A stretch of DNA of 38,096 nt from Alphaproteobacteria bacterium (lineage in GTDB: Bacteria; Pseudomonadota; Alphaproteobacteria; GCA-2731375): the NCBI GenBank assembly GCA_029937535.1, contig JAPYPT010000011.1, positions 1 through 38,096 of the forward strand, given 5' to 3'. Both the position numbers and the translations under genes were made by a program. This document shows positions 2,627-37,324 of this stretch, in pieces. Each line of letters begins with the position of its first letter. Positions within the stretch are counted from its first letter, which is position 1. The notes below the pieces were generated by a model. It had not been told where the DNA came from. It did not search any database and worked only from the letters and a program-made list of their open reading frames with translations.

Positions 2627-2679
2627 CCCCGCCGCCCTTTTCATCCCAGGTTCCCCGCCGAACGCCGTCATAGCGGACC

Positions 2680-3552: not shown

Positions 3553-3559
3553 GGGGCGC

Positions 3560-5727: not shown

Positions 5728-5731
5728 CCCC

Positions 5732-6256: not shown

Positions 6257-7464
6257 GAGGCGCGCCCGGAGCGGAAGGCCAGCCGGTCCTGACGCCCGGA
6301 CAGACGCGAAGTTTGATATTCATTCTCGGCACGCTGACCGCTTTCGGCCCTTTGTCCATCGACATGTATCTGCCCAGCATGCCGGCCATGGCGGTGGATC
6401 TGGACGCGCCCACGGCACGGGTGCAAATGACCTTGAGCAGCTATTTCATCGGCGGGGCGCTGGGGCAGATGCTGTTTGGTCCGCTGTCGGACCGGTTTGG
6501 GCGGCGGCCGTTGTTGCTGGCCGGGATAGCCTTATATGTCCTGACCTCCACCCTTTGCGCCCTGTCCAGTGGCGTCGAGATGCTGATCGCGCAACGGTTT
6601 TTGCAGGCCATCGGCGGCAGCGCGGCGTCGGTGCTGGCCCGCGCCATGGTGCGCGATTTCTTTTCCGGCGACCGGGCGGCCCGTGTCCTGTCCCTGATCA
6701 TGCTGGTGATGGGCGCCGCACCCCTGGTGGCGCCATTCTTGGGCGGCTATCTGCTGTTGTGGTTCGACTGGCGGGCCATTTTCTGGGCCTTGTCCGGCTT
6801 CGGTGCGGTCTGTTTTGTGCTGGTGCTTGCCGTTGTGCGGGAAAGCCATCCAAAGGAACGGCGCATTCGGCACGGCCTGGTGGGAATGCTGGGCATGTAT
6901 GGCCGCATCATCCGCCATGCGGGCGCGGTCGGGTACCTGTTGGCCAACGCCACCGCCTACGGCGGCATGTTCGCCTTTTTCGCCGGGTCGCCGTTCGTCT
7001 ATATCCGGCTCTTTCGTGTGGCGCCAGAAAACTATGGCTATCTCTTCGCCTGCAACGTCATCGCCTTGATGGCGGTGTCCCTGTTGAACGCCAGATTGGT
7101 GACACGCCTGGGCGCCCACCGTCTGTTCGCCCTGGGTACGGTCTTGGTCGCCCTATCGGGCATGGCCTTGCTCTTTACGGCCATCACGGGTTTTGGCGGC
7201 CTGCCCGGGATCGTCATCCCCATATTTATTTACGTCGGCTCGCTAAGCCTGATCGGCGCCAACAGTCTGGCCTTGGCCCTGGACCGGTTTCCCCAGGCGG
7301 CGGGCAGTGTGTCGGCTTTGTCGGGCGGCATAAGTTTCCTGTACGGCTCGCTTTGCACCGGCGCGGTGGGTCTGTTTCATGACGGCAGCGCGCTGGCCAT
7401 GGCGGCCGTCATTGCCGCCACGGGCCTGCTCACCCTGGTCCTGCAAATCCGCCTGACACGCTAA
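6253..7464 (+). CDS. Bcr/CflA-type multidrug efflux transporter (MFS)
   Basis: Inner-membrane proton-driven exporter of the major facilitator superfamily, with 403 residues and about 12 hydrophobic segments. The first helix ends in LSIDMYLPSMPAMAVDL, a hallmark of the Bcr/CflA (DHA1) group, and the loop after helix 2 has FGPLSDRFGRRPLLL, the MFS motif A. In related proteins this group exports bicyclomycin, chloramphenicol or sulfonamides; the substrate here cannot be told. ATG at 6253 overlaps the stop of the thioesterase as ATGA and is preferred over the in-frame TTG at 6232. Its TAA stop lies at the left edge of a repeat element (7461-7577) whose hairpin may end transcription. Confidence 0.92.
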   Translation: MRGAPGAEGQPVLTPGQTRSLIFILGTLTAFGPLSIDMYLPSMPAMAVDLDAPTARVQMTLSSYFIGGALGQMLFGPLSDRFGRRPLLLAGIALYVLTSTLCALSSGVEMLIAQRFLQAIGGSAASVLARAMVRDFFSGDRAARVLSLIMLVMGAAPLVAPFLGGYLLLWFDWRAIFWALSGFGAVCFVLVLAVVRESHPKERRIRHGLVGMLGMYGRIIRHAGAVGYLLANATAYGGMFAFFAGSPFVYIRLFRVAPENYGYLFACNVIALMAVSLLNARLVTRLGAHRLFALGTVLVALSGMALLFTAITGFGGLPGIVIPIFIYVGSLSLIGANSLALALDRFPQAAGSVSALSGGISFLYGSLCTGAVGLFHDGSALAMAAVIAATGLLTLVLQIRLTR

Positions 7465-7577
7465 AGCATGTTCATTTTAAACATGCTTGGACTCTTAAGA
7501 AAAGAGCCATTGAACCAATCACTTGGGTCGCATTAAATACGTTTTGGTCGACTACGATTAATTGAAAATGGCTCTAA
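7461..7577. repeat. Dispersed palindromic repeat, family R1, copy a
   Basis: About 117 bases between two convergent genes. It starts with CTAAAGCATGTT, which pairs with AACATGCT at 7480-7487 to form a short hairpin. A CTCTTAAGAAAAGAG palindrome follows, and the end (AAAATGGCTCT) pairs back to AGAGCCATT near 7502-7510. The left end provides the TAA stop of the MFS gene and the right end the TAG stop of the minus-strand Fe-S protein gene. By hand about 58 of the first 70 bases match the inverted copy ending at 33006. A role as bidirectional terminator is inferred from position and structure. Confidence 0.75.
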
Positions 7578-8224
7578 TAATTTCGTAAAAACGCGGCCAT
7601 GTGAAAGGCCGCCTGAGCCGGTTCGTACAAATAGTTCCGGCCAACCGGACAGGCCCGCCGGGCCCGGCAACCGGTGTCCAGGCAATCGGCACCATCGGGT
7701 TGTTTCATGTGGCCGGCGCAGGCCGGCACGTCATAGCCGTTGGCGCTGAACGCGGAAACCGGGCAGGTATTCAGACACGGTTTTTCGGCGCAATCATCAC
7801 AAGGATAGATATCCAGCGGCGGCGGTAGGACCATTTTATGTTGGAACAGCAAAGCGCCGCGATAGGCATGCCACAGACCGTATTCGGGATGGATCAGTGG
7901 CCCTATGGGCGAAGGCGTCAGACCTTCGGCCCGGCCCGCCCAGGTGATAAACGGCTGATAGGGCGGTCCGTCAAAGGGGAACACGATCCCTGCACAGAGA
8001 TCATTTGCCAAAGGCGTCAGCAACTTACAGCACCAGTTATCGAGGGCATGGCGGCTGCCGTCGGGACCCGTGAAGCACCGCCATAAATCAGCGCCCGCAT
8101 TGCCGATCAGAACCACCGTCGCGGCCGCCAGATCATCGCCGTCCAAGGGATGAAAACCGCCGCGCGGGATGAGGCCCAAGGGGCTCAGCGAGGCCGTCAC
8201 CCGATCATAGTCAACTTCGCTCAT
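7574..8224 (-). CDS. Ferredoxin-like 4Fe-4S protein, function unknown
   Basis: A 216-residue soluble protein with a Cys-rich C-terminal third. From about residue 149 there is C-x2-C-x4-C-x3-C-P (CDDCAEKPCLNTCP), then four further Cys in ACAGH, DCLDTGC and ACPVG. This could hold one or two 4Fe-4S clusters, with an arrangement like the ferredoxin-type tail of epoxyqueuosine reductase-like proteins, but the cobalamin-binding QueG domain is absent. The N-terminal part has VVLIGNAGADLWRCF and HALDNW, seen in related ferredoxin-like proteins. The start at 8224 is chosen for GGAGGC about ten bases upstream; a longer frame to 8410 lacks such a site and overlaps the divergent gene. The stop codon is formed by the end of a repeat. 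The electron partner is unknown. Confidence 0.75.
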   Translation of the reverse strand: MSEVDYDRVTASLSPLGLIPRGGFHPLDGDDLAAATVVLIGNAGADLWRCFTGPDGSRHALDNWCCKLLTPLANDLCAGIVFPFDGPPYQPFITWAGRAEGLTPSPIGPLIHPEYGLWHAYRGALLFQHKMVLPPPLDIYPCDDCAEKPCLNTCPVSAFSANGYDVPACAGHMKQPDGADCLDTGCRARRACPVGRNYLYEPAQAAFHMAAFLRNY

Positions 8225-8267
8225 AAGCCGGTCGCCTCCAATATGAATCCGTGGCATCTTGCAGGCA

Positions 8268-9146
8268 ATGACCGCGAATTCAAGCATCCATCCGTTCATA
8301 GCCAAAATCCTGGCCGTCATCATGGCCGCGGCGCTGTTGTCCGTGCTCGGCCAATGCCAGCCTGTGCCGAAGCCATTCGCTGCCGGACACAAGGGCGATT
8401 TCAGCGCCATTCAGATCGGCCCGCGCGCCGGCACCGTGGTCCTGCCCATCGCCGGCGATATGCCCACGGGCGTGGCCGGGGCTCTGGCGGAGGCCATGGC
8501 GCGGGCCTTGCGGCGGCGGGAGGTCACCGCCAGCACCACCACGGGCCACCGCCGCAGCCATCGTCTACGGGGTGAAGCTATCCTGGTTTCGGAGACTCAA
8601 TTGCAGTTGACCTGGCGCTTGAGCAGATCTGATCACACCGAAGCCCTGGCAATAACCCAGATGGAAGACATCTCCCCCGGCGCCTGGCAGCGGGGCGACA
8701 ACGCGCTCTTGGAGCGGTTGGCCGGCAAGGGGGCGGCGGCGCTTGACCGTCGGTTGCGCCGCCTCGAACGTGGCCGGGGTCGGCGCGATGCCTTGGCGTC
8801 CGTCACCTTGGGGCCGCTGGACGGCGTGCCGGATCAAGGCGGCCGGGAACTGGCCCTGGCCATGCGGGCCGCCTTGGCGGATGCCGGCGTACCCCTGTCG
8901 GACGATCCTGTTGACGATGGCTTCATCCTGTTGGGCAGCATGCATCTGAGCCCCGATGGCGCCGGCCAGAGGATCGAGATGGTCTGGCACCTGATCCGCC
9001 CCGACGGCAAGGAATTCGGCACCATCAGCCAGGCCAACACCGTGCCCGCGGCGCAACTGGCCGGTAATTGGCGAAGTCTGGCCCGCGCCATCGCCCGGGC
9101 GGGCGCGCCCGGCGTACGGGACCTCCTGCGCCGTGACCCTGGTTAG
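8268..9146 (+). CDS. Probable exported protein or lipoprotein, unknown function
   Basis: A 292-residue protein I do not recognise. ATG at 8268 gives a hydrophobic N-terminal segment (residues 10-28) ending in VLGQC with Cys30. This is a candidate lipobox, but Gln before the Cys is unusual, so plain signal-peptide cleavage is also possible. The rest is hydrophilic and Arg/Ala-rich, with two similar-looking halves: each has a run around ALAEAMARAL / LALAMRAALADAG followed by a strand segment ending in TWRLSRSDHTEA / VWHLIRPDGKEF, which suggests an internal duplication. It is transcribed away from the Fe-S protein gene, with 43 bases between the two starts. Confidence 0.7.
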   Translation: MTANSSIHPFIAKILAVIMAAALLSVLGQCQPVPKPFAAGHKGDFSAIQIGPRAGTVVLPIAGDMPTGVAGALAEAMARALRRREVTASTTTGHRRSHRLRGEAILVSETQLQLTWRLSRSDHTEALAITQMEDISPGAWQRGDNALLERLAGKGAAALDRRLRRLERGRGRRDALASVTLGPLDGVPDQGGRELALAMRAALADAGVPLSDDPVDDGFILLGSMHLSPDGAGQRIEMVWHLIRPDGKEFGTISQANTVPAAQLAGNWRSLARAIARAGAPGVRDLLRRDPG

Positions 9147-9196
9147 AGACCGCGCCTATGTGATACGCTTGACGCTCGCAATAGGGAGAGTTCGCC

Positions 9197-10066
9197 ATGA
9201 CCATGAACAGCCCGCTGTGGGGCGCTGAACTGGACCATATTCGCCTGGATTCCGGCAATCCAGGCGCATTGGCGGCCTTTTACCGGGATGCCTTCGCCAT
9301 GGCCGACGATTCCCTGGACGACGGCAGCAGATTGCTGCGGGGGCCCGACCGCCGCCTGATTATCGGCGCGGGCACGGCCGGTGAGCAACCCTACAGCGCC
9401 TTTCGCTTTCCCGATTCCGGGCGGTTGCAGGCGTTCAAGAATCATCTGACGGCCCAGGGTGTTAACCTGATGCCATCGCCCACGCCGCTGTTCGGCCAGG
9501 ACGCCTTCGCCGTCGCCGATCCCGATGGCCGGCAAATGGTGTTCGGGCTGCCCAGTCCGGCGCACCAGACCGGTGATAGTGGGCCGCAAGGTCATCCACC
9601 GGGCCGGCTGCAACACGTCGTGGTGGCGACCGCCGATCTGGCGCCCATGATGGCCTTTTACGAGGATACTTTGAGTTTCGTGGCCACCGACCATGTCCTG
9701 CGCGACGAAGATGACGGCAGCCAGACCCTGACGGCGATCTTCTACCGCTCCACGCCGGAGCATCATTCATTCGCCATGTTCCTCTCGGATGCCCCCCGCC
9801 CGGACCATCATGCCTATGAAGTGTCCTGCTGGAACGATATCCGCGATTGGGCCGATCATATGTCCGATCTGCATATCAAATTATGGTGGGGTCCCGGCCG
9901 TCATGGCCCGGGCAACAACCTGTTCTTCATGGTCGAGGACCCGGACGGCTACAAAGTGGAAATCTCCGCCGAGCTGGAGAACATGGACGACAGCGCCCCG
10001 ACACGGCAATGGCCCCACACGGAGCGCTCCCTCAATCTCTGGGGTCCCGGCTGGATGCGGGCCTAA
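9197..10066 (+). CDS. Two-domain VOC protein, type I extradiol dioxygenase-like
   Basis: 289 residues made of two vicinal-oxygen-chelate domains (about 10-118 and 138-262). The second domain has His140, His204/205 and Glu255. These match in kind and spacing the 2-His-1-Glu iron site of type I extradiol ring-cleaving dioxygenases such as BphC (His146, His210, Glu260). The first domain has His14 but no matching acid, as usual for this family. The protein ends RSLNLWGPGWMRA, a tail also common in this group. It probably opens a catechol-type ring or is a related metalloenzyme; the substrate is unknown. AGGGAGAG lies upstream of the ATG. No other aromatic-ring catabolic gene is adjacent, so it may act alone. 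Confidence 0.8.
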   Translation: MTMNSPLWGAELDHIRLDSGNPGALAAFYRDAFAMADDSLDDGSRLLRGPDRRLIIGAGTAGEQPYSAFRFPDSGRLQAFKNHLTAQGVNLMPSPTPLFGQDAFAVADPDGRQMVFGLPSPAHQTGDSGPQGHPPGRLQHVVVATADLAPMMAFYEDTLSFVATDHVLRDEDDGSQTLTAIFYRSTPEHHSFAMFLSDAPRPDHHAYEVSCWNDIRDWADHMSDLHIKLWWGPGRHGPGNNLFFMVEDPDGYKVEISAELENMDDSAPTRQWPHTERSLNLWGPGWMRA

Positions 10067-23858: not shown

Positions 23859-25469
23859 TCAGCCACGCAGGGAGCGCATTTGTTCCAGATAGCCGTCGGG
23901 TTCAAGGACCACGTCGATCAGACATGGCCCTTGATCCTTCGCGGCCTCGGTCAACGCCGTGGACAGGTCCTTGGCATTGTCGGCACGCCAAGTACGCAGG
24001 CCCAGCCCTTGCGCGGCGGCGGCGAAATCGGGCCGTTGCCAGGTAAAGCCCAGGTCCGGCAGTTGCATCTCCTGACGCTTAATATCGATCAATGACAGGG
24101 CGCCGTCGTTGAAGACGATGACGGTCAGGTTCGCCCGTTGCTGGGCGGCGGTGACCAATTCGCCCATGCACATCATCAGGCCGCCGTCTCCGGTCATGGC
24201 CACCGCGCCACGCACGGGATCGTGCAACGCGGCGGCGATTGCCGCCGGCAGGGCGAAGGCCATGGTCGCCAGGCCATTGGAAATCAGCACATCATAAGGT
24301 TTCCCGGCCGGCCAAAAGGCCACGGCGGAGAACATGTGGGCGCCGGCATCGACCGCCAGGCGCGGCCGTCCGGCAAACGCGGCGGCCGCTGATTTGACGA
24401 TATCCACGGGCGTCAGGCCGGGGCGGTCCGGGAACGCCATGGCCTCTTGAAAGGCGCTGCGATGCCGTTGAATTTCGGCTGCGGTCCATTCCGCCGGCGA
24501 CAAGGTGGTTGTCAGTTGGTCAATAATGGCCGCGATGGGGCCGTATAGGCCCACCGCCGGGGTCAGATAATGCTTGGCGTGGCGGACCTCGCCCAGATCG
24601 ATGACAGGGGCGCCGTAGGCCCAGGGCTTGCGGATCAACTCCACCGGGTCCAGGCCCGCCAGGATGATCAGGTCGGCCTCCGCCACGCAGGGGAATTCCG
24701 CCTGCCCGCCAGTGAAGATGCCGGCGAAGTTGTCATGGCCGTCGGGAATAACGCCCTTGGCCATGTATGTCACCAGCGCCGGCGCGTTCAACGCTGCCGC
24801 CAGCCGCCGGACTGCCCCGGCGTTGTCCCGCGATGTGCTTTCAAAGCCGGCTACGATGACGGGCCGTCGGGCCGCCTTGATCATGGTCAGAGCGGCATCC
24901 ACGTCGCCGACGATACCTCTGCCTTCGGTTCCGGCCCCGGCGGGGCGGGCGGTGACAGCCCGTTTGGCCACGGCCCCCGTCAGTTCCACGAAGGCCGGGC
25001 CCTTGGGCGGGGCTGCCAGGATTTGCAGCAATTCGTCGATTTCCGCGCCTGGGTCGTCGCCCGATAGCGTGCTGGCCGCCTTGGTGATGGGTTCCAACAC
25101 CCCCGCCTGGTCGAAATATTGATGCGAGACGTAATCCCGTTCATCGGCGCCGAAACCATCGGAGACGAAGATTACCGGCGCCCGGTCCAGATAGGCCGAG
25201 GCGATGCCGTTTGCCGCCGATGTCAGGCCGGGGCCTTTCGTCGCCAGCGCCAGGCCGGGGGCGCCCGTAAGCCAGGCGGTGACGGCGGCCATGATGGTGC
25301 CCGCATCTTCCCGCCGGCTGAGCACGAATTCGATCCCGGCGCGCCGCCCGGCATCGATCAGATCCATGCTGCTGCCGCCACCGGGTACGCCAAAAACCCG
25401 TTCGAGGCCCTGTTGTTTGAGGCGGTCGATCAGTAATTCAGCGACGGTCATCGCGCCATCAGTGTTCAC
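23859..25469 (-). CDS. ThDP-dependent enzyme, acetolactate synthase-like
   Basis: 536 residues with the three-domain ThDP fold. The N-terminal PYR domain has VFGVPGGGSSMDLIDAG and the catalytic Glu54 in SRREDAGTIMA. A central FAD/DHS-like domain includes RRPVIVAGFES. The C-terminal PP domain carries the ThDP/Mg motif GDGGLMMCMGELVTAAQQ...FND (about 424-452). It looks like the 2-oxo-acid decarboxylase/carboligase branch (sulfopyruvate, phenylpyruvate, benzoylformate or acetolactate types), but no substrate residue can be read off. GTG 25469 follows AAAGGGAG; ATG 25451 is the alternative. It is the last gene of the five-gene operon, 13 bases after hyuA. With a class IV aminotransferase upstream, a 2-oxo acid derived from an amino acid is a reasonable substrate. 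Confidence 0.9.
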   Translation of the reverse strand: MNTDGAMTVAELLIDRLKQQGLERVFGVPGGGSSMDLIDAGRRAGIEFVLSRREDAGTIMAAVTAWLTGAPGLALATKGPGLTSAANGIASAYLDRAPVIFVSDGFGADERDYVSHQYFDQAGVLEPITKAASTLSGDDPGAEIDELLQILAAPPKGPAFVELTGAVAKRAVTARPAGAGTEGRGIVGDVDAALTMIKAARRPVIVAGFESTSRDNAGAVRRLAAALNAPALVTYMAKGVIPDGHDNFAGIFTGGQAEFPCVAEADLIILAGLDPVELIRKPWAYGAPVIDLGEVRHAKHYLTPAVGLYGPIAAIIDQLTTTLSPAEWTAAEIQRHRSAFQEAMAFPDRPGLTPVDIVKSAAAAFAGRPRLAVDAGAHMFSAVAFWPAGKPYDVLISNGLATMAFALPAAIAAALHDPVRGAVAMTGDGGLMMCMGELVTAAQQRANLTVIVFNDGALSLIDIKRQEMQLPDLGFTWQRPDFAAAAQGLGLRTWRADNAKDLSTALTEAAKDQGPCLIDVVLEPDGYLEQMRSLRG

Positions 25470-25482
25470 CGCGCGCTCCCTT

Positions 25483-27612
25483 TCACAATTGCCGCAGGGC
25501 GATAAAGTTCAATCCTTCGTCCACTTCACCGCTGAAATCAGGCGGCAGCACAAGGGTGGATTCCACTTCCTCCAGCACCGCCGGGCCGCTGATTTTCACG
25601 CCGGGCGCCAGGCTGCCGCGGTCATAAACAGGTGTCTCCATAAAGCCCACGTCCGGGCCGAACCAGACCGGACGCATGGTTTGTTCGGCAGCTTCCCACT
25701 GGATTTCGGCCGAACCGCGAAGGGCGTCCCGCAGGGGCGGGCGCGGTCCGGTGACCACCACGCGCCAGGTAATGGTCTCGGGCGGCATGGCCTCGGTGCG
25801 GCCGAACCGGCGGCGGTAGCTCTGGGAAAAACTCCGGGCGACGGCTTCCCCATCGCCGTTTTCAATCCAGTCCCGTTGCACGGGTACCTCGACTTCATAG
25901 CCCTGGCCCACATAACGCATCATGATGGAGAGAGTGCTGGTTATATCGACCTCCGCCACGCCGGCATGGCGCACCATGTCCCTGGCCTGTTCCATCATTG
26001 TTTGGATCATCGAAGCGACGATGGGCCAATCCACCCCATCCAGCCGCGCCATGCTGGCCTGGGCCAGCTCGAACGAGATCGGCGCGCCGAGCATCCCGAT
26101 GGCCGATGCCACGCCCGCGCCCACGGGACAGATCAAGCGGTCAATGCCCATCTTGCGGGCCAGGCCGCAGACATGCACCGGGCCGGCGCCGCCAATGGGC
26201 ACCATGGTAAATTTCTCCACATTCAGGCCCTTTTCGATGGCATGGATGGCGGCGGCCTGGGCCATGTTGCCGGTGACGATTTCGTGGATACCCCACGCTG
26301 CCTCTTCCATTGTGATGCCCAGGGGTTCCGCCAGATATTCGTTTATGGCCGCCGCCGCCCCATCCCGGTCCAGTTGCATGGCGCCGCCCAGGAAATTTCC
26401 GGGATCGAGATAGCCCAGCACCACATCCGCATCCGTCACCGTGGGCTCCCGGCCGCCCAGGCCATAACAGACCGGGCCCGGATCGGAGCCGGCGCTATCG
26501 GGACCGACCTGGATCAGGCCGAGGCGGTCGATCCGCGCGATACTGCCGCCCCCAGCGCCAATCTCGATCATATCGATGGCGGGGATCTGCAAGGGCAGGC
26601 CGCTGCCCTCGGCAAACCGGAATACGCGGGCGACTTCGAACGTGGCGGCGCGCCGTGGTTCGCCATTCTCGATCAAACAGGCCTTGGCCGTGGTGCCGCC
26701 CATGTCGAAGCAGAGCAGATCCCCGGCCTTTTCATCCGGCCCGGACATCGCCCCATACAGCACGGCGGCCTGGGCGCCCGCGGCCGGCCCGGACTGTACC
26801 AGGCGGATCGGGTATTCCGTCGCCGTGTCCTGCCTGACCAGGCGGCCGTCCGAGAGGATCAACAGCAAATCCCGCGCGAAACCCAACTCCGTCAATCCGG
26901 CGACCAGCCGGTCCACGTAGGTTTTAAAAATCGGGTGAACATAGGCATTGGCGACCGTGGTGGAGCTGCGCTCATACTCCCCCATTTCCGGGCTGACGGT
27001 CGAAGAAATCGAAACCGACAGGGAGGGCGCGATGTCCATGAGCCGCTCACGGATCGCCACCTCATGGGCCGGATTGCGGTAGGCGTGCAGCAGGCAAACA
27101 GCAACGGATGCCACGTCCAGTTGCCGGAACCTCTCGACGATGCCGTCCAGTTCATCCAGTACGACCGCCTCGATGACCGCGCCGTCGGGGCCAATCCGTT
27201 CGGTGATTTCCTGACGCCGGGGCCGGTCGGCAATGGGGTCGGGCATTTCGATTTCCAGGTCAAACAGGTCGTAGCGCCACTCCCGGCCGATCTCCAGGAC
27301 ATCGCGAAAGCCCCGCGTGGTAATCAGACCGGTCTTCACGCCCTTGCGTTCGATCAGGGCATTGGCCACCAAAGTGGTGCCATGAATGACCGCGTCGACC
27401 TCCCCCGGACCCACGCCACAATCCGCCAGAATGCGGGATATGCCCGCCATGACCGCGCGGGAGGGATCATCCGGCGTGGTGAGTAGTTTTGTCTTTTCGG
27501 TACGGCTGTTGGCCACATCCCACAACACCACATCGGTGAAGGTACCGCCGATATCAACGCCGATACGATAGTTCGCGGCAGCTTTGTCAGGCGCGTCTTC
27601 AGTCGCCGCCAT
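25483..27612 (-). CDS. Hydantoinase/oxoprolinase family protein, HyuA subunit
   Basis: 709 residues of the ATP-dependent hydantoinase A / 5-oxoprolinase family. The N-terminal actin-like ATPase motif YRIGVDIGGTFTDVVLWD and the core DAVIHGTTLVANALIERKGVKTGLITTRGFRDVLEIGR are textbook; SGPAAGAQAAVLYG, LCFDMGGTTAKACLIENGEP and GAGGGSIARID follow. With HyuB it would couple ATP hydrolysis to opening a cyclic amide (5-oxoproline, N-methylhydantoin, caprolactam) or, in other branches, to carboxylating ketones. The start overlaps the hyuB stop by 14 bases, so the two are made together. An antisense frame across it is a shadow. Confidence 0.95.
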   Translation of the reverse strand: MAATEDAPDKAAANYRIGVDIGGTFTDVVLWDVANSRTEKTKLLTTPDDPSRAVMAGISRILADCGVGPGEVDAVIHGTTLVANALIERKGVKTGLITTRGFRDVLEIGREWRYDLFDLEIEMPDPIADRPRRQEITERIGPDGAVIEAVVLDELDGIVERFRQLDVASVAVCLLHAYRNPAHEVAIRERLMDIAPSLSVSISSTVSPEMGEYERSSTTVANAYVHPIFKTYVDRLVAGLTELGFARDLLLILSDGRLVRQDTATEYPIRLVQSGPAAGAQAAVLYGAMSGPDEKAGDLLCFDMGGTTAKACLIENGEPRRAATFEVARVFRFAEGSGLPLQIPAIDMIEIGAGGGSIARIDRLGLIQVGPDSAGSDPGPVCYGLGGREPTVTDADVVLGYLDPGNFLGGAMQLDRDGAAAAINEYLAEPLGITMEEAAWGIHEIVTGNMAQAAAIHAIEKGLNVEKFTMVPIGGAGPVHVCGLARKMGIDRLICPVGAGVASAIGMLGAPISFELAQASMARLDGVDWPIVASMIQTMMEQARDMVRHAGVAEVDITSTLSIMMRYVGQGYEVEVPVQRDWIENGDGEAVARSFSQSYRRRFGRTEAMPPETITWRVVVTGPRPPLRDALRGSAEIQWEAAEQTMRPVWFGPDVGFMETPVYDRGSLAPGVKISGPAVLEEVESTLVLPPDFSGEVDEGLNFIALRQL

Positions 27613-29230
27613 GAACCTTGCGCGCCTTTTCCTCGCTCAACAGTCCACGGCGGACATCTTCCGCAACCGACAGCGGGTCCCGTTGGCCGGGCGGAAACAG
27701 ACCGCCGCCGCCCGGTGTTTGAAAGGTCGCGATATCGCCCGGCAGAAGTTGCTGCCGGGATTTGGCGGCAATAACCTTGCCGTTAACCAGATCCCGCCCC
27801 GGCGCGCCGTTCTCGCCGCCCAGCAAACCGCGCGGCGGAAAGTGGATGCGTTCGTGGCGGATGGTCATGGTAATCGGCGTCTTGGCAACGGACTTAAACG
27901 ACAGCCGCTGGGCATCGCCGCCCCTAAACTTGCCCATCCCGGCAGTATCGGGGACGAAACATTTTTCGGTCACCAACAGCGGCGCCTGGTTTTCGAACAA
28001 CTCAATTGGCTGGTTAGAGACGTTGGAGGGGAAACTGAGGCAACCGGGCCCATCCCCATTGGGCCGCGCCCCGTGGCCACCGTTCATGAAGAACATCTTC
28101 ACGAAAGGCGCTCCATCATCGACCTGTTGACCCTTGAAATAGACATTCCACAGGGGCGAGCCGGACTCGGCGATGACCCGTTCCGGCAGCACCGTGCTCA
28201 AGGCGCCGAAAATGGCGGGCGGTGCATAATGGCCCGACAGATGCCGGCCCCAGACCGGCGCCGGGCGCTGGGCGTTCAACAGGCAGCCAACCGGCGCCCG
28301 GATCGTCACCGCCTCGAACGAGCCGCTGTTATTGGGCGCGCCGGGGTCGAGCAGACATTTCAAGGCAAAGCAGGAATAAGCCTGGGTATAATTCATCACG
28401 CTGTTGATGGGATAGGGGATTTGTGGCGAGGTGCCGTCGAAATCCACCTCGATTGCCTGGCCCGCAATGGTTACCGTGCAGCGGATGGTCAGGGGTTCGT
28501 CAAAGCCATCGACCTGGAATTCATCGCTGTAAGAGCCATCGGGCAACCCGGCGATCACCGCCCGCATGCTGGCCGATGAGCGGCGCATGATCTCTTCGAT
28601 CACCGCCTCGAAATCATCCAGGCGTTCCTCTTCCAGGACTTGGATGATCTTCCGCTGGCAGTCGTGGTAGGCGGCGAATTGCGCCCGGATGTCGCCCAAG
28701 GTCTCGTCCGGGTCGCGCAGATTTTCCGTGATAAAATCAATGACAAGCGAATTTTCCTCGCCCCCCTCGACGATTTTGCAAATGGGGATGCACAGGCCTT
28801 CTTCGTAGCAGTCCTGGGCGCTGGGCGAGGGCGCGCCGCCGATATCGACCGTATGGGCGGTGCTGCCGGCAAAGGCGAGCAGCCTCTCCCCCCTGAAGAT
28901 CGGGCAGATCATGGAGATATCGTTCAGATGCCCGGTGCCGATCCAGGCATCGTTGGTGATGATGACATCGCCGGGGCGCAGGCTTTCTTTTGGGAACTTC
29001 TCCAGCACGGCGGCCAGGGTCCGGGGCAGGGTGCCGATGAAACTGGGGATGGAGCGCTTGGACTGCACGAACTGCCGGCCTTGCGTGTCCAGCAGGGAGA
29101 ACGCCATGTCGTAATTGTCCCGCACCACGGTGGAAAAGGCGGCGCGGATGAAAGTTTCGGAAACCTGATCGACGATGCCGTTCAGGCGCTGCCAGATCAG
29201 GCCGAGGCGGATCGGATCGAGATCAGCCAT
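27599..29230 (-). CDS. Hydantoinase B/oxoprolinase family protein, HyuB subunit
   Basis: 543 residues, the usual HyuB length. The sequence MADLDPIRLGLIWQRLNGIVDQVSETFIRAAFSTVVRDNYDMAFSLLD at the start, LRPGDVIITNDAWIGTGHLNDISMICPIF, the CTVTIAGQAIEVDFDGTSPQ block and the C-terminal MTIRHERIHFPPRGLLGGENG with the Gly/Pro-rich LLPGDIATFQTPGGGGLFPPGQRDP are family hallmarks. HyuB is the partner that carries the substrate-hydrolysing metal site in characterised complexes. It overlaps the aminotransferase stop by eight bases at its start (AATGGCTGA) and hyuA by 14 bases at its end. Confidence 0.95.
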   Translation of the reverse strand: MADLDPIRLGLIWQRLNGIVDQVSETFIRAAFSTVVRDNYDMAFSLLDTQGRQFVQSKRSIPSFIGTLPRTLAAVLEKFPKESLRPGDVIITNDAWIGTGHLNDISMICPIFRGERLLAFAGSTAHTVDIGGAPSPSAQDCYEEGLCIPICKIVEGGEENSLVIDFITENLRDPDETLGDIRAQFAAYHDCQRKIIQVLEEERLDDFEAVIEEIMRRSSASMRAVIAGLPDGSYSDEFQVDGFDEPLTIRCTVTIAGQAIEVDFDGTSPQIPYPINSVMNYTQAYSCFALKCLLDPGAPNNSGSFEAVTIRAPVGCLLNAQRPAPVWGRHLSGHYAPPAIFGALSTVLPERVIAESGSPLWNVYFKGQQVDDGAPFVKMFFMNGGHGARPNGDGPGCLSFPSNVSNQPIELFENQAPLLVTEKCFVPDTAGMGKFRGGDAQRLSFKSVAKTPITMTIRHERIHFPPRGLLGGENGAPGRDLVNGKVIAAKSRQQLLPGDIATFQTPGGGGLFPPGQRDPLSVAEDVRRGLLSEEKARKVHGGD

Positions 29231-30161
29231 TGTAAACCGGGGTCAACCAATGTCCGTGACCTGGGTGCCGGCCGCGGACGATGTCGTCAAACCGCGCCTG
29301 CAAACGCCGGGTGAGGGGACCCGGTTCGCCCGTCCCCACCGGGCGGCCATCAAAGGCGGTGACCGGACCGATCTCCTGCCCGGTGCCGCAATAGAAGGCT
29401 TCCTCGGCCAGATAAAGCTCCGTGCGGCCAAGGGGCCGCTCGGCCGTTTCGATGCCCAGATCGCCGGCCATCTCCAGGATGGTTTGCCGGGTGATGCTCT
29501 CCAATATGCCGCTGTTGACGTCCGGCGTCAGGAAAACCCCGTCCCGCATCAGGAACAGACAGCCCCCCGGCCCCTCGGCGATGGTGCCATTCTGATTTAG
29601 GATCACGGCGCCGCCCGCGCCCTGGCGCTTGGCCTCCAGCCCGGCCAGGCGGCTGTTCAGATAGTTGGCCGAGGCCTTGATGCGCGGCGGCGAGGCGTTC
29701 TCAGCGTTGCGGGTCCAGGACGAGGTGACGAAGGTCTGCCCCGCCTCGAAGACGGCGGCGCGCGGGCGCGGCCGGCAGATTACCGTGCTGCCCGTGGGCG
29801 AAGTCGCGGTCATGGAACCCCAATCGTCCACATAGACTTGCAGCCGGATATAGCTGTCCTCACGGAACTCGTTGGCGCGCAAGGTCGCCAGAATGTCCTG
29901 GGCCAGAACCTCGGAAGATGGCGGATCGTCCAGTTCCAGCAGCGCCATGGAGAATTGCAGCCGCTTGAGGTGGTCGTCCAGGCGGAAGATCAACAGCTCT
30001 TCTTGGTCCTCGTTCCAATAGGCCCGAAAGCCCTCGAACACCAAGGCGGCGAAGGTCAGCCCCGGCGCCATGACGGAAATCTTGGCGTCCCCGTAGGCGA
30101 CCAGCGCATGGTTCTGGCTCACCCACTTGATCCGGGCGCGGCTGTCTTCGGTTGTGCTCAC
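29223..30161 (-). CDS. Class IV (branched-chain-type) aminotransferase
   Basis: 312-residue fold-type IV PLP enzyme. The PLP lysine is Lys162 in ASPPRIKASANYLNSRLAGLEA, and the phosphate cup includes GILESITRQTILEMAGDLGIETAERPLG. The N-terminal SVMAPGLTFAALVFEGFRAYW replaces the usual HGL/YGTSVFEG motif of IlvE with a related form. The branch covers BCAT, D-amino-acid transaminase and R-amine transaminase; the sequence favours BCAT-like but does not settle it. GTG 30161 is the start, four bases after the hydrolase gene. In this operon it probably removes the amino group released by the HyuAB hydrolase and passes a 2-oxo acid to the ThDP enzyme; that is inference. Confidence 0.92.
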   Translation of the reverse strand: MSTTEDSRARIKWVSQNHALVAYGDAKISVMAPGLTFAALVFEGFRAYWNEDQEELLIFRLDDHLKRLQFSMALLELDDPPSSEVLAQDILATLRANEFREDSYIRLQVYVDDWGSMTATSPTGSTVICRPRPRAAVFEAGQTFVTSSWTRNAENASPPRIKASANYLNSRLAGLEAKRQGAGGAVILNQNGTIAEGPGGCLFLMRDGVFLTPDVNSGILESITRQTILEMAGDLGIETAERPLGRTELYLAEEAFYCGTGQEIGPVTAFDGRPVGTGEPGPLTRRLQARFDDIVRGRHPGHGHWLTPVYNG

Positions 30162-30165
30162 CGGC

Positions 30166-31113
30166 TCAAACGTCCCAGCTGGTGAAGATGGCGCGCAGGG
30201 CGGTGACGAAGGCGAGCGGTTGATCTATGGCGATGTGGTGCTGGGCGTCGGGGACACAGATCATGGGGTTGGCCGGGTCGAAAATACTGCTCATGTAGTC
30301 CACCACTTCGGGGCCGAAAATGGCGCTGTCGGCGCCCCAGACCATGGCCTTGGGGCAGGGCATGGCGCGCAGGTAATCCTCCAGGGGGTCGTCATGCAGG
30401 CCGGCGACACGGGCCGTTGGATCGAATTTCCAGGTATAGCCGCCGTCGCATGCCTTCAGGGAATTGCGGGCGATGTGTTCGAGGATGTACTCGTTTTCGC
30501 AATATTGCGGCGGGATGGTGCGAAAGCGGTAGACCATTTCCTCCGGGTCCGTGAAAACCCGGTTCGCGGGCCGCTGGGGCGGGTCATAAACCCGGCGGCT
30601 ATCGCCCGTGGGCCGGTTTTCGGGGCGCAGGGGGCTATCGACGATGACCGCGCCGGATAGGTTGGCGCCCTGATCCTTGCCGTAACACATGGTCATGTAG
30701 CCGCCGAAGCTGTGGCCCACGATGATGGGTTTTTCGCCCAAGTCCGCATGGGCCAGCACGGCGGCGATTTCGGCTACATGAACCTGGGCGCCATAATTCT
30801 CCCGCCAGCCGCTGTCGCCCATGCCCGAGAGGTCGATGGCCGCGACGGGCCGGTCGGAGCTGAAAAACGGCGCGATAAAATCCCACCAATGGGCATGACA
30901 GCCGGCGCCATGGATGAACAGAATGCCCGGTTTATCGGCGGCTTGCGGTCCCCACCGCAAATAGTGGATATCGCAATCAAGCACCTGCACATGGTGCGAG
31001 GTGGGCTCGTCCTTCAGGGCATTTTCGAACCAAAGGGGCGGTTCCATGGCGGGCGGCTCTTGCGGCTCCGGTACGGGGGGTGGATCAAATTCCATGCGCT
31101 GTTCCCATATCAT
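30166..31113 (-). CDS. Alpha/beta hydrolase, first gene of the catabolic operon
   Basis: 315 residues with an alpha/beta-hydrolase fold: oxyanion segment FIHGAGCHAHWWD, nucleophile Ser135 in IVGHSFGGYMTM, acid in the FGPEVVDYM region and His in PDAQHHIAIDQP. The first about 35 residues are Pro/Glu-rich and may be disordered. The start is uncertain: ATG 31113 has a poor ribosome site, while ATG 31095 has GGGAAC five bases before it. It opens the minus-strand operon, divergent from the carotenoid-oxygenase gene with about 175 bases between them. It may cleave an ester or amide that releases the operon's substrate. Confidence 0.88.
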   Translation of the reverse strand: MIWEQRMEFDPPPVPEPQEPPAMEPPLWFENALKDEPTSHHVQVLDCDIHYLRWGPQAADKPGILFIHGAGCHAHWWDFIAPFFSSDRPVAAIDLSGMGDSGWRENYGAQVHVAEIAAVLAHADLGEKPIIVGHSFGGYMTMCYGKDQGANLSGAVIVDSPLRPENRPTGDSRRVYDPPQRPANRVFTDPEEMVYRFRTIPPQYCENEYILEHIARNSLKACDGGYTWKFDPTARVAGLHDDPLEDYLRAMPCPKAMVWGADSAIFGPEVVDYMSSIFDPANPMICVPDAQHHIAIDQPLAFVTALRAIFTSWDV

Positions 31114-31287
31114 CCTGGTGCGGTGGTTGAACGGGCAATATTACACGGCCCGCCACGCCAATATAGAGCCTTTCCCGTATTCTCCATTTTGGCGATCCGG
31201 CCAGAAACTTGAAAATCCCGGACCTGGCGATGGAAAATACACATCGCCTTATGATATTATGATGGGAACATAATGGGGGAAGCCGAT

Positions 31288-32643
31288 ATGTCAGAAGCCG
31301 AGAACCTTCGGAACGAACCGGTATCAGTGGCGGACAACCCGGTCCTGCAAGGCAACTTCGCGCCGGTGGCGGAGGAGATTACGGCCCGCGACCTTACCGT
31401 CGAGGGCACCATCCCGGCGGAATTGAACGGCGCCCTATTGCGCGACGGGCCCAACCCCATCGCACCCGGCCCCGGCCATCATTGGTTCATGGGCGACGGT
31501 ATGATCCACGGCATCTCCATCGCCGGCGGCCAGGCCCAGACGTATCGCAACCGTTGGGTTCGGACGCCCGAGGTCGAGGCGTTGAAGGGTCTCCCCGCCG
31601 GGCGCATCAGCCCGAACCAGCCCTTCAAACAAGGCTCTGGCAGCGTCAATGTCATTGGCCATGGCGGGCGCATTCTGGCCTTGCCGGAGGTTGGCCTGCC
31701 GTGGGAGCTGGATGGAGACCTGAACACCATCGGCCAGCATGACTTCGACGGCGCCCTGGCCAGCAATATGACGGCGCACCCAAAGATTGACGCGGAGACG
31801 GGGGAGCTGGTGTTTTTCGGCTATGACTTCGGTCCCATCAGCCTGCGCTATCATGTGGCCGACCGCGAGGGGAATTTGCTGCGGACGGTGGAGATTGAAA
31901 AACCCATCCCCACCATGATGCATGACTTCGGCGTCACCGCGTCGCGGGTTATCTTCATGGATCTGCCCGTCGCCTTCGATATGGAAATGGCCATGGCCGG
32001 CAGGGGTTTGCCGTTCCGCTGGCGGGACGACATGCCGGCGCGCCTCGGTCTGCTGCCGCGCGCGGCCACCTCCGACGAGGTGCAGTGGATCGAGATCGAC
32101 CCTTGTTTTGTCTACCATCCCCTGAATGCTTTCGACGACGGCGACCGGATCATCTTCGACGTGGTGCGCCATGACCGCACCTTCGTCCAGGGTCAGCTCG
32201 AGGGCGGCGGCGAGGTGCGCCTGGAACGCTGGACCATCGATCCCGCCAAGGAACGGGTGACATCGGAAATCATCTCCGAACGCGGCCAGGAATTCCCCCG
32301 CGTGGACCCGCGCGTGGAATGCAAACCCCACCGATATGGCTATACGGTGGATTTTGAACTGCAGGTCGGGCCCGGCGGACTTTTGAAACATGACCTCGAG
32401 GCCCGCACGGTAACCCCGCACGACGTCGGCCCGGCGGGCGCGGCCAGCGAGGGTGTGTTTGTCCCCGTCGGCGGCGGCGAGGATGAAGGTTATGTCCTGT
32501 CCGTGGTTTATGATGGCGACAGCGGCACCAGCCATGTGCGGATCATCGATGCCCAGGATTTCGCCGCGCCGCCCGTGGCCAAAATTCAACTACCGGCGCG
32601 CGTACCCTTTGGCTTCCATGGTAACTGGATCCCGGCGGACTGA
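31288..32643 (+). CDS. Carotenoid cleavage dioxygenase-family protein
   Basis: 451-residue seven-bladed propeller enzyme that cleaves a carbon-carbon double bond with Fe(II) and O2. The four iron ligands are visible at His164 (TAHPKID), His212 (MMHDFGVT), His277 (VYHPLNAFDDGD) and His444 (FGFHGNW). The N-terminal DGPNP and YRNRWVRT also match. Lignostilbene-type members have Lys in the LALKE segment; here it is LALPE, so cleavage of hydroxystilbenes looks less likely than of apocarotenoids or related compounds, but this is tentative. ATG 31288 is chosen because GGGGGA lies seven bases before it; ATG 31273 is also in frame. A hairpin follows the stop at 32646. Confidence 0.93.
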   Translation: MSEAENLRNEPVSVADNPVLQGNFAPVAEEITARDLTVEGTIPAELNGALLRDGPNPIAPGPGHHWFMGDGMIHGISIAGGQAQTYRNRWVRTPEVEALKGLPAGRISPNQPFKQGSGSVNVIGHGGRILALPEVGLPWELDGDLNTIGQHDFDGALASNMTAHPKIDAETGELVFFGYDFGPISLRYHVADREGNLLRTVEIEKPIPTMMHDFGVTASRVIFMDLPVAFDMEMAMAGRGLPFRWRDDMPARLGLLPRAATSDEVQWIEIDPCFVYHPLNAFDDGDRIIFDVVRHDRTFVQGQLEGGGEVRLERWTIDPAKERVTSEIISERGQEFPRVDPRVECKPHRYGYTVDFELQVGPGGLLKHDLEARTVTPHDVGPAGAASEGVFVPVGGGEDEGYVLSVVYDGDSGTSHVRIIDAQDFAAPPVAKIQLPARVPFGFHGNWIPAD

Positions 32644-33832: not shown

Positions 33833-34045
33833 GCCGGGATTTTGTTCGGGCCGCGCGGGCAACCTGCATTCTCTGCTCTACACAGACCAAACTAGCCGGA
33901 TAGAATTGACACGTAATCGGCGAAGGTGCTGGCAATTGAATTTAATTGAAGAATATTGATGCAAGACGTAAACTAAAATAAGTTGAGTTCAAAATTTCGA
34001 TGGTTTCCTCGTTTGTTGCTGTTTCAAACAGTTAGAGAGGCTTCC

Positions 34046-37000
34046 ATGGCGAACCAGGAAACGCAACCCGGTCGGCAAAGCACAATCCCGTTGCCGCCAC
34101 CAACCGCTCTTCGGGACAAGGGTCTGGCCGGTCGTCGCGAAATTGAAGGGCAACGCCGTCAAGTCACGGTGCTTTTCGCTGATGTGGTCGGATACACGCC
34201 GTTGGCGCAAAAACTGGGCGACGAAAATACATTTCTATTCATGCAGCGTGTGATCCGGGAATTGAGCGAGGCCGTACACACGGAAGAAGGCCTAGTCCAG
34301 GAGTTAACCGGTGACGGCCTTATGGCCTTGTTTGGCGCGCCCATCGCCTACGAGGATGCACCAATCCGCGCCTGCCGTGCCGCCCTGGATATTCAGGTCC
34401 GCATGATGCAAATCGGCGATGACGTCGCCGAGGCCCATGGCGCGCGGCCGCAACTTCGCATTGGCATTCACACGGGCAGCGTCGTGGTAGGCAAGGTTGG
34501 CGATGACTTGCAAATGGAGTTCACCGTTTTGGGCGATACGGCGAACCTGGCTTCGCGCCTGGAGGGTGCGGCGGAGCCGGGCGAAGTGCTTATGAGCGAA
34601 GCCACTTTTGCTCTGGTCGGCGATTACGTAGAGAGCACTCTCGCCGGTGAACGCGAACTCAAAGGCATCGAAGGCCGCCGTACAGTCCATCGGCTGGACG
34701 GCCTGTTGAGCGAGGTCAGCCGCTTCGATGTCGCGTTAAAACATGGCCTGACACCGTTGATCGGCCGCCATCGAGAACTGGAGCAATTGGAAGAGAGTTG
34801 GCGTCAGGCAAAGGCCGGCAATATCCGCTTGGTCAACATCGTTGGCGAACCGGGCATCGGAAAATCCCGGCTGGTGCACGAATTCCGTGCGATTGCGGAA
34901 GGCGATGACGCCATTTTTTTCCAGGGCTATTGCGCCACCGGATCCCGCGCCGCGCTATTCCGGCCGTTCATTGAGGTGGTGCGCAGGTCCTTCCGCGTTG
35001 ACGAGCGCAGCGACAAGGCGGCCGCGACAAAGGCCCTCCAGGGCGGCCTCGAGTTATTGGGTCTGCCGGCGGATCGGCACCTGCCCTACTTGCTCAATCT
35101 TTTGGGTTATGAAGCCGGTGACATCATCGACCGCATGGGCCGGGACGAGGTGAAGCGCCTGACATTGGAAACCTTGCAATCGATACTCTTCGAACGCTGC
35201 CGGGCTTCTCCCGTGGTGCTTTGCCTTGAGGATCTGCATTGGATTGATGCCGCTTCGCAGGGATTTCTGCAATGGTTGGCGGAGGCCCCGGACAGCCTGC
35301 CATTGCTGGTGTTCTGCACCTATCGGCCCGAACATCTGCCGACCTGGGCGCGGGGCGACCATATCGCCCAGATCGATCTCACACCCCTGACCGGTACGGG
35401 TACGCTCGATCTGGTCAAACGCCGGCTTGATGTTGATGAATTGCCGAGTGAGTTTGCGACCCTGCTAAATGAAAAGGCAGAAGGCAATCCGTTATTTGCG
35501 GAAGAAGTCACCAGCTATCTGATCAAATCGGGACAAGTGCGGGAGACCGAACGGCAGGTAAAGTTTCAGGCAGCAAAAGATCAAACTGGTTCGGCGGGTG
35601 TGCCCGACACGCTTGGCGGACTTTTGACGCAGCGTATCGATCGGCTGGAGAACGACACCCGTAGGGTATTGGAGGCCGCCGCCGTGGTCGGCACGCGCTT
35701 CACCCTCGATCTGGTTGGGGAAGTGACCGGTCTCGGCGACGCTCTAGCGCATCACTTGGAAGAACTTGAACGTGAAGACCTGATATTCATGGAGGATTCA
35801 GGCAATACTTCGCGTTTCCGCATCAAACACGCCCTGGTTCAGGACGCTGTCTACAACAGTCTATTGTCAGCTGACCGTGAAAGTTTGCACCTGTCCGTCG
35901 CAACGGCCATGGAAAGAATTTACGCCGGGCGCGAGAATGAAGTTCTCGATCTGTTGGCCGATCACTACACCCGAACCGGCAAGATCCAGAAAGCCATCCT
36001 GTATCTTTCGCTGGCCGGCGAGCGGGCCTACCGCACCTATTCAATTCCTGAAGCCGACAGCCGTTATCATCAGGCCTTGCGCCTTATGGAAGATAACCCC
36101 GGCAAGACCGAACCATCATTAATAATTGATCTGGTGCTGGATCTTGCCCGGCTCTACTACTTCACCGGCCAAAGTGGCAACCTTATCAAAATCGTAGAAA
36201 AATATTTACCTGACGCCGAAGCATTGGGTGACAAAGTGCGTCTATCGCACTGCCTATCAGAAATTGGTTACGCCTATGTCTTCGCGGGCGAACCCGAAAC
36301 TGGGAAGCCAATGCTGGAGCGGGCGCTTGTCATGGCCCAGGATATCGGCGACACGAGCGCCCAGGCCCACGCCTCCGCCGGATTAGCCTGGTATTACGGT
36401 TTCGTTGCGGAATATTCGCCAGCCAATCGGGCGGCACTTCGTGAAAACGGCGAGCGGGCGTTTGAACTAGGGCGGGATGGAAAGGATTTCTGGCTCGCCG
36501 CCAAGGGCCTCTATGCCATGTCCATCGGCGTCCTGATAGAGGGCAACCCCGGCGGATCGCGGGATTTGGCCCAACGACTGCTGGTCTATTCGCGGACCAC
36601 CGAACATCCTTGGCCCAGGGCCATGGGCGTCGACCTGCTTTGCGGTATCGACCTGGTTACCGAGGATTTCCAGAGCGCTTTGGTGCGGAACGAAGAATCC
36701 CTGCATTCGATCAACGATCCGATTGCACAACAAATTTTCGGCATGCGAAAAGCGGCCGCGTTGACCGGACTAGGCCGCGCACGGGAGGGCTGCGAACTGT
36801 TCGTCAAGTTTCGCAGTGAACTGATCCAAAATAGATTTATTCTGGCGCTTTCATTTATGGACTATCTGTATGGCGTCGCCCAGGTGCTGGATGGAAATTT
36901 CGCCCAGGGAATCCGATTTATCAAGGAAAGCCGAAAACAAATTATGCGCTGGGGGAATCCGCGCCTCGCGGAGTTTGAGGATTTTTTTCTTGGCCAGATT

Positions 37001-37324
37001 TACCTGGCCCTGGCACTGGGCGAAGAGAAACCATCGGCCGGTGTTATTTTTAAGAATCTTGGTTTTCTAATTTGGAATTTACCGCAAGCGGCACGTAAGG
37101 CAGAGCATCACCTGCGGGCAGCTGAGTACATATTCCGTCAGCAGAATGCACCAAGTTTCATCGCCCAGGCGTTGGTTGGCCTTGGTTTGCTCGCGGTCAA
37201 ACGCAAACGGCACGACGAAGCACGAGAAATATTCCAAGAAGCCCGAGAATTGGCTGCGTCGGTTGAGGGGATGGCAATCGTGGAGGTTGCGGATAAGCAA
37301 CTGGTCTCACTGCGCAAGAATTGA
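34046..37324 (+). CDS. Class III adenylate/guanylate cyclase domain fused to STAND-type ATPase and TPR repeats
   Basis: 1092-residue soluble signalling protein. Residues 38-218 form a class III cyclase domain: metal Asp46 in LFADVVGY, Asp90 in LTGDGLMALFG, and the transition-state pair Asn167 and Arg171 in DTANLASR are present. The purine-selecting positions are unusual: Glu86 where Lys is usual and Thr160 where Asp is usual; Thr there marks class IIIb. An AAA_16/STAND ATPase follows, with P-loop GEPGIGKS at 267-274 and LEDLHWID near 394-401, then TPR-like helices from about 640 to the end. The layout resembles mammalian soluble cyclase ADCY10. ATG 34046 has AGAGAGG close upstream; a TTG at 33983 is less likely. 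The input signal is unknown. Confidence 0.92.
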   Translation: MANQETQPGRQSTIPLPPPTALRDKGLAGRREIEGQRRQVTVLFADVVGYTPLAQKLGDENTFLFMQRVIRELSEAVHTEEGLVQELTGDGLMALFGAPIAYEDAPIRACRAALDIQVRMMQIGDDVAEAHGARPQLRIGIHTGSVVVGKVGDDLQMEFTVLGDTANLASRLEGAAEPGEVLMSEATFALVGDYVESTLAGERELKGIEGRRTVHRLDGLLSEVSRFDVALKHGLTPLIGRHRELEQLEESWRQAKAGNIRLVNIVGEPGIGKSRLVHEFRAIAEGDDAIFFQGYCATGSRAALFRPFIEVVRRSFRVDERSDKAAATKALQGGLELLGLPADRHLPYLLNLLGYEAGDIIDRMGRDEVKRLTLETLQSILFERCRASPVVLCLEDLHWIDAASQGFLQWLAEAPDSLPLLVFCTYRPEHLPTWARGDHIAQIDLTPLTGTGTLDLVKRRLDVDELPSEFATLLNEKAEGNPLFAEEVTSYLIKSGQVRETERQVKFQAAKDQTGSAGVPDTLGGLLTQRIDRLENDTRRVLEAAAVVGTRFTLDLVGEVTGLGDALAHHLEELEREDLIFMEDSGNTSRFRIKHALVQDAVYNSLLSADRESLHLSVATAMERIYAGRENEVLDLLADHYTRTGKIQKAILYLSLAGERAYRTYSIPEADSRYHQALRLMEDNPGKTEPSLIIDLVLDLARLYYFTGQSGNLIKIVEKYLPDAEALGDKVRLSHCLSEIGYAYVFAGEPETGKPMLERALVMAQDIGDTSAQAHASAGLAWYYGFVAEYSPANRAALRENGERAFELGRDGKDFWLAAKGLYAMSIGVLIEGNPGGSRDLAQRLLVYSRTTEHPWPRAMGVDLLCGIDLVTEDFQSALVRNEESLHSINDPIAQQIFGMRKAAALTGLGRAREGCELFVKFRSELIQNRFILALSFMDYLYGVAQVLDGNFAQGIRFIKESRKQIMRWGNPRLAEFEDFFLGQIYLALALGEEKPSAGVIFKNLGFLIWNLPQAARKAEHHLRAAEYIFRQQNAPSFIAQALVGLGLLAVKRKRHDEAREIFQEARELAASVEGMAIVEVADKQLVSLRKN

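Follow-up and report, generated by a model that had tools for sequence, protein, structure and literature searches.

The four genes AT4, HyuB, HyuA and ThDP, which encode a class IV aminotransferase, the two subunits of a HyuAB-type ATP-dependent enzyme and a ThDP-dependent enzyme, form the conserved core of a proteobacterial gene cluster and are a real unit. Whether this core is a conserved catabolic module that would work by the steps proposed below, with HyuAB acting as a cyclic amidase, is about evenly balanced. The cluster was followed up from one copy of a marine-type alphaproteobacterium in a window of 38,096 nucleotides, the whole stretch of DNA that was analysed.

Five minus-strand open reading frames in the window span positions 23859–31113. 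In operon order they encode an alpha/beta-hydrolase, ABH (30166..31113; nucleophile motif GHSFGG; Pfam Abhydrolase_6, 71 bits); AT4, a BCAT-like class IV aminotransferase (29223..30161; FEGxR, YxR and a CGTGQE loop; Aminotran_4, 149 bits; TIGR01122); HyuB, the metal-site subunit (27599..29230; Hydantoinase_B, 472 bits; metal ligands assigned by alignment); HyuA, an ASKHA-type ATPase subunit (25483..27612; Hydant_A_N, 173 bits; Hydantoinase_A, 280 bits; DIGGTFTD, DMGGTTAK and GxxPGP); and a ThDP enzyme of acetolactate-synthase fold (23859..25469; TPP_enzyme N/M/C, 97/63/110 bits; catalytic Glu54). All of these Pfam scores lie far above the cut-offs. Successive junctions measure +4, -8, -14 and +13 bases, and the ORF check and Pfam together reproduced every family, coordinate and spacing given in an earlier note on this DNA.

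An intergenic region of 159 bp (31114..31272) lies between the start of the minus-strand operon and a diverging plus-strand gene. A consensus scan of this region returned no confident promoter, with a single minus-strand match near the start at 31294–31267, and promoter and terminator scans were uninformative. The diverging gene (31273–32643), which is also kept as a neighbour in locus L049, encodes an RPE65-family carotenoid/stilbene-type dioxygenase that scores 428 bits against a cut-off of 675 for apo-carotenoid 13,14-dioxygenase. Positions 33983–37324 encode an adenylate/guanylate cyclase fused with an AAA_16 ATPase and TPR repeats (1113 aa). The genome is a 5.6-Mb draft of 534 contigs with 25 HyuA matches, the window's contig being G000:C69, and its closest named relatives among the matches listed are Rhodospirillaceae and other alphaproteobacterial MAGs.

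To count linkage, the ThDP alignment was scanned against 84,980 species genomes, and the best 80 loci plus the window gave 81 loci, in which HyuA or HyuB had to lie within 6 kb of the ThDP gene and AT4 within 9 kb. HyuAB adjoins the ThDP gene in 68/81 of these loci, AT4 lies near it in 43/81 and both are present in 41/81. Many of the 81 loci end at contig ends; among the matches listed, 42 have more than 8 kb on both sides, and these include HyuAB in 35, AT4 in 26 and both in 25. Linkage among the matches listed spans alpha-, beta- and gammaproteobacteria and at least four gene orders. The order AT4–HyuB–HyuA–ThDP occurs in Rhodospirillaceae, SAR116 and one further family (L176). It is kept in 11 of 14 other genomes of the window's own family, where the contig of L038 ends inside HyuB and HyuA/ThDP stop–start overlaps of a few bases are common. 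Falsiroseomonas and other Roseomonadaceae carry ThDP–HyuB–HyuA with AT4 reversed, Variovorax KK3 and Limnohabitans carry HyuB–HyuA–aldehyde dehydrogenase–ThDP–TctC–AT4, and loci L063 and L083 have HyuBA diverging from ThDP–TctC–AT4. Linkage that persists through such rearrangement argues strongly for joint function. The earlier note had allowed that the genes might rarely be neighbours elsewhere; the core of four is instead linked across three proteobacterial classes.

When 385 genomes were sampled evenly across the class, a HyuB orthologue was found in six, of which all six carry AT4 and five carry the ThDP gene, against overall counts of 26/385 and 22/385. The corresponding hypergeometric P values are 5e-8 for AT4 and 2e-6 for ThDP, although three of the six genomes belong to one genus and independence is therefore overstated. 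Furthermore, all eight Roseomonas-type genomes with ThDP–HyuBA but no adjoining AT4 carry an AT4 orthologue elsewhere, with 60–70% identity to the Falsiroseomonas copy (one is partial). Protein distances of HyuA, ThDP and AT4 are correlated at 0.87–0.95 (HyuA–ThDP 0.95, HyuA–AT4 0.92), which shared ancestry alone could also give. As an internal control, 20 further HyuAB regions were examined in the window's genome. AT4 was found beside none of them, and two have ThDP-type neighbours of other kinds, namely a split sulfopyruvate-decarboxylase-like pair (L144) and a full-length ThDP enzyme (L157). The control regions, the 385-genome counts and the linkage across gene orders rule out chance neighbours.

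In locus L053, AT4 is followed directly by the ThDP gene and HyuBA is missing; L051 is alike but cut at its end. Both come from draft MAGs close to the window's clade. No HyuB orthologue was found among the approximately 30 or more HyuB copies of these two genomes (best 43–44%), and, given 30 or more other copies, a paralogue could replace HyuB there. This pairing suggests that AT4 and the ThDP enzyme catalyse consecutive steps, with HyuAB as a feeder. Similarly, on a Variovorax megaplasmid an aldehyde dehydrogenase gene directly precedes a ThDP gene of 44% identity that has no HyuAB or AT4 close by, which makes these two enzymes look like consecutive steps as well.

The genes around the core vary. 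ABH was found in only 6 of the 81 loci (best 80 matches plus the window), so that the five-gene unit first described holds for AT4, HyuB, HyuA and ThDP and not for ABH. This hydrolase reached no NCBIfam cut-off, its nearest PDB matches are weak (58 bits), and it is a lineage-specific accessory, esterase/amidase-like, outside the core. The earlier observation of a cluster free of transporter and regulator genes is correct for the window and does not extend to many relatives, in which TctABC and LysR genes are included. Among the matches listed, seven loci have LysR and TctC–TctB–TctA ahead of AT4, TctA or TctB occurs in twelve or thirteen overall, TctC receptors lie near in 35 and an aldehyde dehydrogenase is present in eight. 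Locus L036, whose Tct and LysR genes were named from the overlapping locus L075 on the same contig, reads ABH, LysR, TctCBA, AT4, HyuB, HyuA, ThDP; from this order, the contact of ABH with AT4 in the window may stem from loss of the importer block.

Other hydrolases occupy the same setting. Among the matches listed, a beta-lactamase-type esterase follows ThDP in five loci (L052 and L054–L057); Pfam and NCBIfam both give this assignment, and a reading of the gene as an acyl-CoA dehydrogenase was discarded, acyl-CoA dehydrogenases being a separate family found in L058 and others. A gamma-glutamyltransferase-family gene lies just before ThDP–HyuB–HyuA in twelve Roseomonas-type loci among the matches listed (in L109, 7316–9004, 406.6 bits against a cut-off of 357.85), and is a possible clue to a glutamyl-type substrate. 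Falsiroseomonas clusters contain another alpha/beta-hydrolase. That the hydrolase differs while its setting stays the same hints that the pathway begins with a hydrolysis.

From the computed linkage, co-evolution, intact catalytic motifs, non-membership in characterised sub-families and AT4–ThDP pairing without HyuAB, we infer a set of reactions, their order and a type of substrate. Where the cluster is most complete, LysR would control a TctABC importer that takes up a carboxylate, an acidic cyclic amide, from which ABH, in the window's lineage, would probably first remove an ester or outer amide. HyuAB, spending ATP, would open the cyclic amide (a lactam, imide or similar) to an alpha-amino acid, AT4 would convert this into a 2-oxo acid, and the ThDP enzyme would decarboxylate the 2-oxo acid to an aldehyde. 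An aldehyde dehydrogenase, encoded in the cluster in several relatives and elsewhere in others, would then yield the acid. The linkage of 68/81 and 43/81 among the matches listed, the importer and LysR genes in front, the dehydrogenase neighbours and the intact HyuAB motifs count in favour of such a module. Against it count the Lys that replaces a reference Asp in HyuA, a ThDP fold closest to carboligases, the lack of an aldehyde dehydrogenase in the window's cluster and the gamma-glutamyltransferase-type Roseomonas clusters in which AT4 is unlinked.

The transamination and decarboxylation steps resemble the arginine transaminase pathway, which couples a transaminase to 5-guanidino-2-oxopentanoate decarboxylase. 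As in the proposal made here, an amino acid is converted to an aldehyde by a transaminase together with an ALS-like ThDP decarboxylase. The arginine pathway, however, has no HyuAB, and the ThDP enzyme scores 187 bits with the PRK07524 decarboxylase model, for which the cut-off is 500.

Caprolactam degradation in Pseudomonas jessenii proceeds through the CapAB caprolactamase, an omega-aminotransferase and 6-oxohexanoate dehydrogenase (PMC6061476, PMC8453981), and provides a precedent for a lactamase followed by a transaminase (PMC6061476). Like the operon and its relatives, the caprolactam system clusters a HyuAB-type ATP-dependent enzyme with a transaminase and an aldehyde dehydrogenase, and domain architecture and metal site are alike. 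The two differ in the transaminase (class IV in the operon, fold type I in the caprolactam system), in the Lys of HyuA that replaces Asp302, in the vicinal Cys pair of CapB, which is absent from the aligned HyuB, and in the additional ThDP enzyme. The caprolactamase models score HyuA and HyuB at 488 (CapA) and 202 (CapB) bits, below the NCBIfam equivalog cut-offs of 1000. The best PDB match is the N-methylhydantoinase/5-oxoprolinase HyuAB family (PDB 7hk5; 378 bits for HyuA, 194 bits for HyuB), from which the operon is set apart by its two separate chains, its separate clade, the motif DMGGTTAK in place of DIGGTSAD and the absence of an N-carbamoylase from the cluster.

The ATP-site motifs of HyuA are intact (DIGGTFTD, DMGGT and GSDPGP, for the patterns DxGGTxTD, DxGGT and GxxPGP). 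HyuB retains an Asp-His-Asp-His metal site, D41, H101, D104 and H126, which is invariant in 12 family copies and aligns with the CapB metal ligands D41, H99, D102 and H124 (PMC8453981). Mapping of the caprolactamase pocket onto HyuB gave remote correspondences only, from which the substrate is not readable. By analogy with these distant relatives, HyuAB may open a cyclic amide. This reaction is the weakest link of the pathway because an activity is known for none of the Lys-type (DMGGTTAK) HyuA proteins that were met.

It is rather unlikely, though conceivable, that the same module employs its Lys-type HyuAB for another ATP-dependent reaction, for instance one that activates or carboxylates the imported acid or a pathway intermediate. 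What speaks for such a reaction is residue Lys310, which occupies the site of CapA Asp302 and is a Lys in 58/58 operon HyuA proteins and also in the nearest HyuA paralogues, in contrast with the Asp found in four reference enzymes with structures (CapA, N-methylhydantoinase, ApcC and AcxA). In the caprolactamase study (PMC8453981), this site, with Asp302 in caprolactamase and Lys281 in the alpha' subunit of acetophenone carboxylase, is singled out as the charge change around the substrate that stands out most. The 58 operon HyuA proteins also form one clade (SH-aLRT 100), nested among DMGGTTAK paralogues and apart from all four references in a quick tree whose long reference branches leave the exact root unsure. 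Operon HyuA is, as judged from the alignment, a subfamily with a charge reversal near the ATP gamma-phosphate and with no characterised member among those met. The complete metal site of HyuB argues the other way, although carboxylases share that site; a third carboxylase subunit is not seen in the cluster, and the adjoining transaminase fits a step that releases an amino acid, as in the proposed opening of a cyclic amide. An identity with acetone or acetophenone carboxylases, which the earlier note had named as a threat to its cascade, was set aside, since HyuA does not group with ApcC or AcxA, within the precision that the long reference branches allow. The HyuA proteins of the window's genome fall into two halves, one Lys-type (TTAK) and one Asp-type (TSxD), and the genome also has more than 20 ThDP-enzyme matches.

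The ThDP enzyme shares with AlsS/BudB the fold, the ThDP-binding motifs, the catalytic Glu and the HQ motif. Its model (pLDDT 88, pTM 0.91) is nearest to AlsS (TM 0.89, 26% identity), and the nearest structures also include carboxyethylarginine synthase and an HKA synthase. Its scores nevertheless fall far below the acetolactate synthase cut-offs (TIGR00118, 196 vs 538; NF006378, 256 vs 510; TIGR02418, 238 vs 551). AlsS residues Q424 and Q487 are reported to position the second (acceptor) pyruvate (PMC9469723), and the ThDP enzyme has A401 and K464 at these sites, the latter being K in 83/83 rows with a readable motif. Because of the missed cut-offs and the replacement of both acceptor glutamines, the enzyme is not a true acetolactate synthase, contrary to one possibility that had been raised at the outset. 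A role as carboligase, linking the 2-oxo acid of AT4 to an acceptor in a biosynthetic or acyloin-forming operon, would suit the nearest structures, catabolic acetolactate synthases and the two other synthases; the substituted glutamines, the recurrent aldehyde dehydrogenase neighbour and the importers in front, which suggest catabolism, make it unlikely. Decarboxylation of a 2-oxo acid to an aldehyde is the preferred reading, and the aldehyde dehydrogenase in eight relatives supports it indirectly.

AT4 carries CGTGQE in place of the GTAAE-type loop of the genome's own ilvE. This CGTGQE loop is diagnostic, being found in 40/40 cluster AT4 copies including the window's, in 0/6 of the genome's own paralogues and in 0/3 PDB relatives. 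Arg residues in loop 130–134 were dropped as a sign of an acidic substrate, since the beta- and gammaproteobacterial copies retain them in part only. It is highly improbable, and already contradicted, that AT4 and the ThDP enzyme serve ordinary branched-chain amino acid metabolism and happen to lie next to one of the many HyuAB pairs: AT4 narrowly exceeds the TIGR01122 (ilvE_I) cut-off (251.5 vs 245.55 bits) and 25 HyuA matches make chance neighbours conceivable, but a canonical ilvB (766.7 bits) and a canonical ilvE (289.2 bits) lie elsewhere in the genome, none of the 20 other HyuAB regions has AT4, and linkage persists across classes and gene orders.

No pathway that matches the AT4–HyuBA–ThDP set was found in the open-licence literature, in keeping with the initial suggestion that the set may be new; the protein families are known, and the gene set is conserved, widespread and undescribed in the open literature searched. 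A bolder proposal, which is rather unlikely, is that the Lys-type HyuAB reaction is new to its family and that AT4–HyuBA–ThDP with TctABC constitutes a new, widespread pathway by which marine and freshwater proteobacteria break down an acidic N-heterocycle. HyuAB genes are abundant in environmental genomes, as the 25 HyuA matches of the window's genome illustrate, and few have a known substrate. The conserved partners suggest the next two chemical steps, the type of importer and a regulator, which turns a large HyuAB sub-family into a testable pathway, and the gene set is carried by hosts that can be cultured, among them Falsiroseomonas stagni and Variovorax. The pathway would also give a reaction to an ALS-like ThDP family that is unnamed in NCBI models.

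Several further loci bear on HyuAB neighbourhoods in general. Locus L144 (G000:C326:5000-16244) encodes, in one direction at 957–10062, a kynureninase, a tryptophan 2,3-dioxygenase-like gene, an amidase, the split sulfopyruvate-decarboxylase-like pair (130 bits against a cut-off of 148 and 124 against 221.5) and HyuA–HyuB; it is a second HyuAB–ThDP pairing, possibly in tryptophan or kynurenine-type catabolism. Locus L174 (G083:C96, 7047–15345) holds two tandem HyuB–HyuA pairs, at 57% and 64% to the window's HyuB, behind an importer-like block; no ThDP gene lies in the vicinity, and an AT4 orthologue is on another contig. In the HyuA tree and in the ThDP tree alike, clusters from a 'Chloroflexi' MAG (L093) and a 'Rhodospirillales' MAG (L071) group with those of gammaproteobacteria, a placement that reflects either co-transfer or wrong binning.
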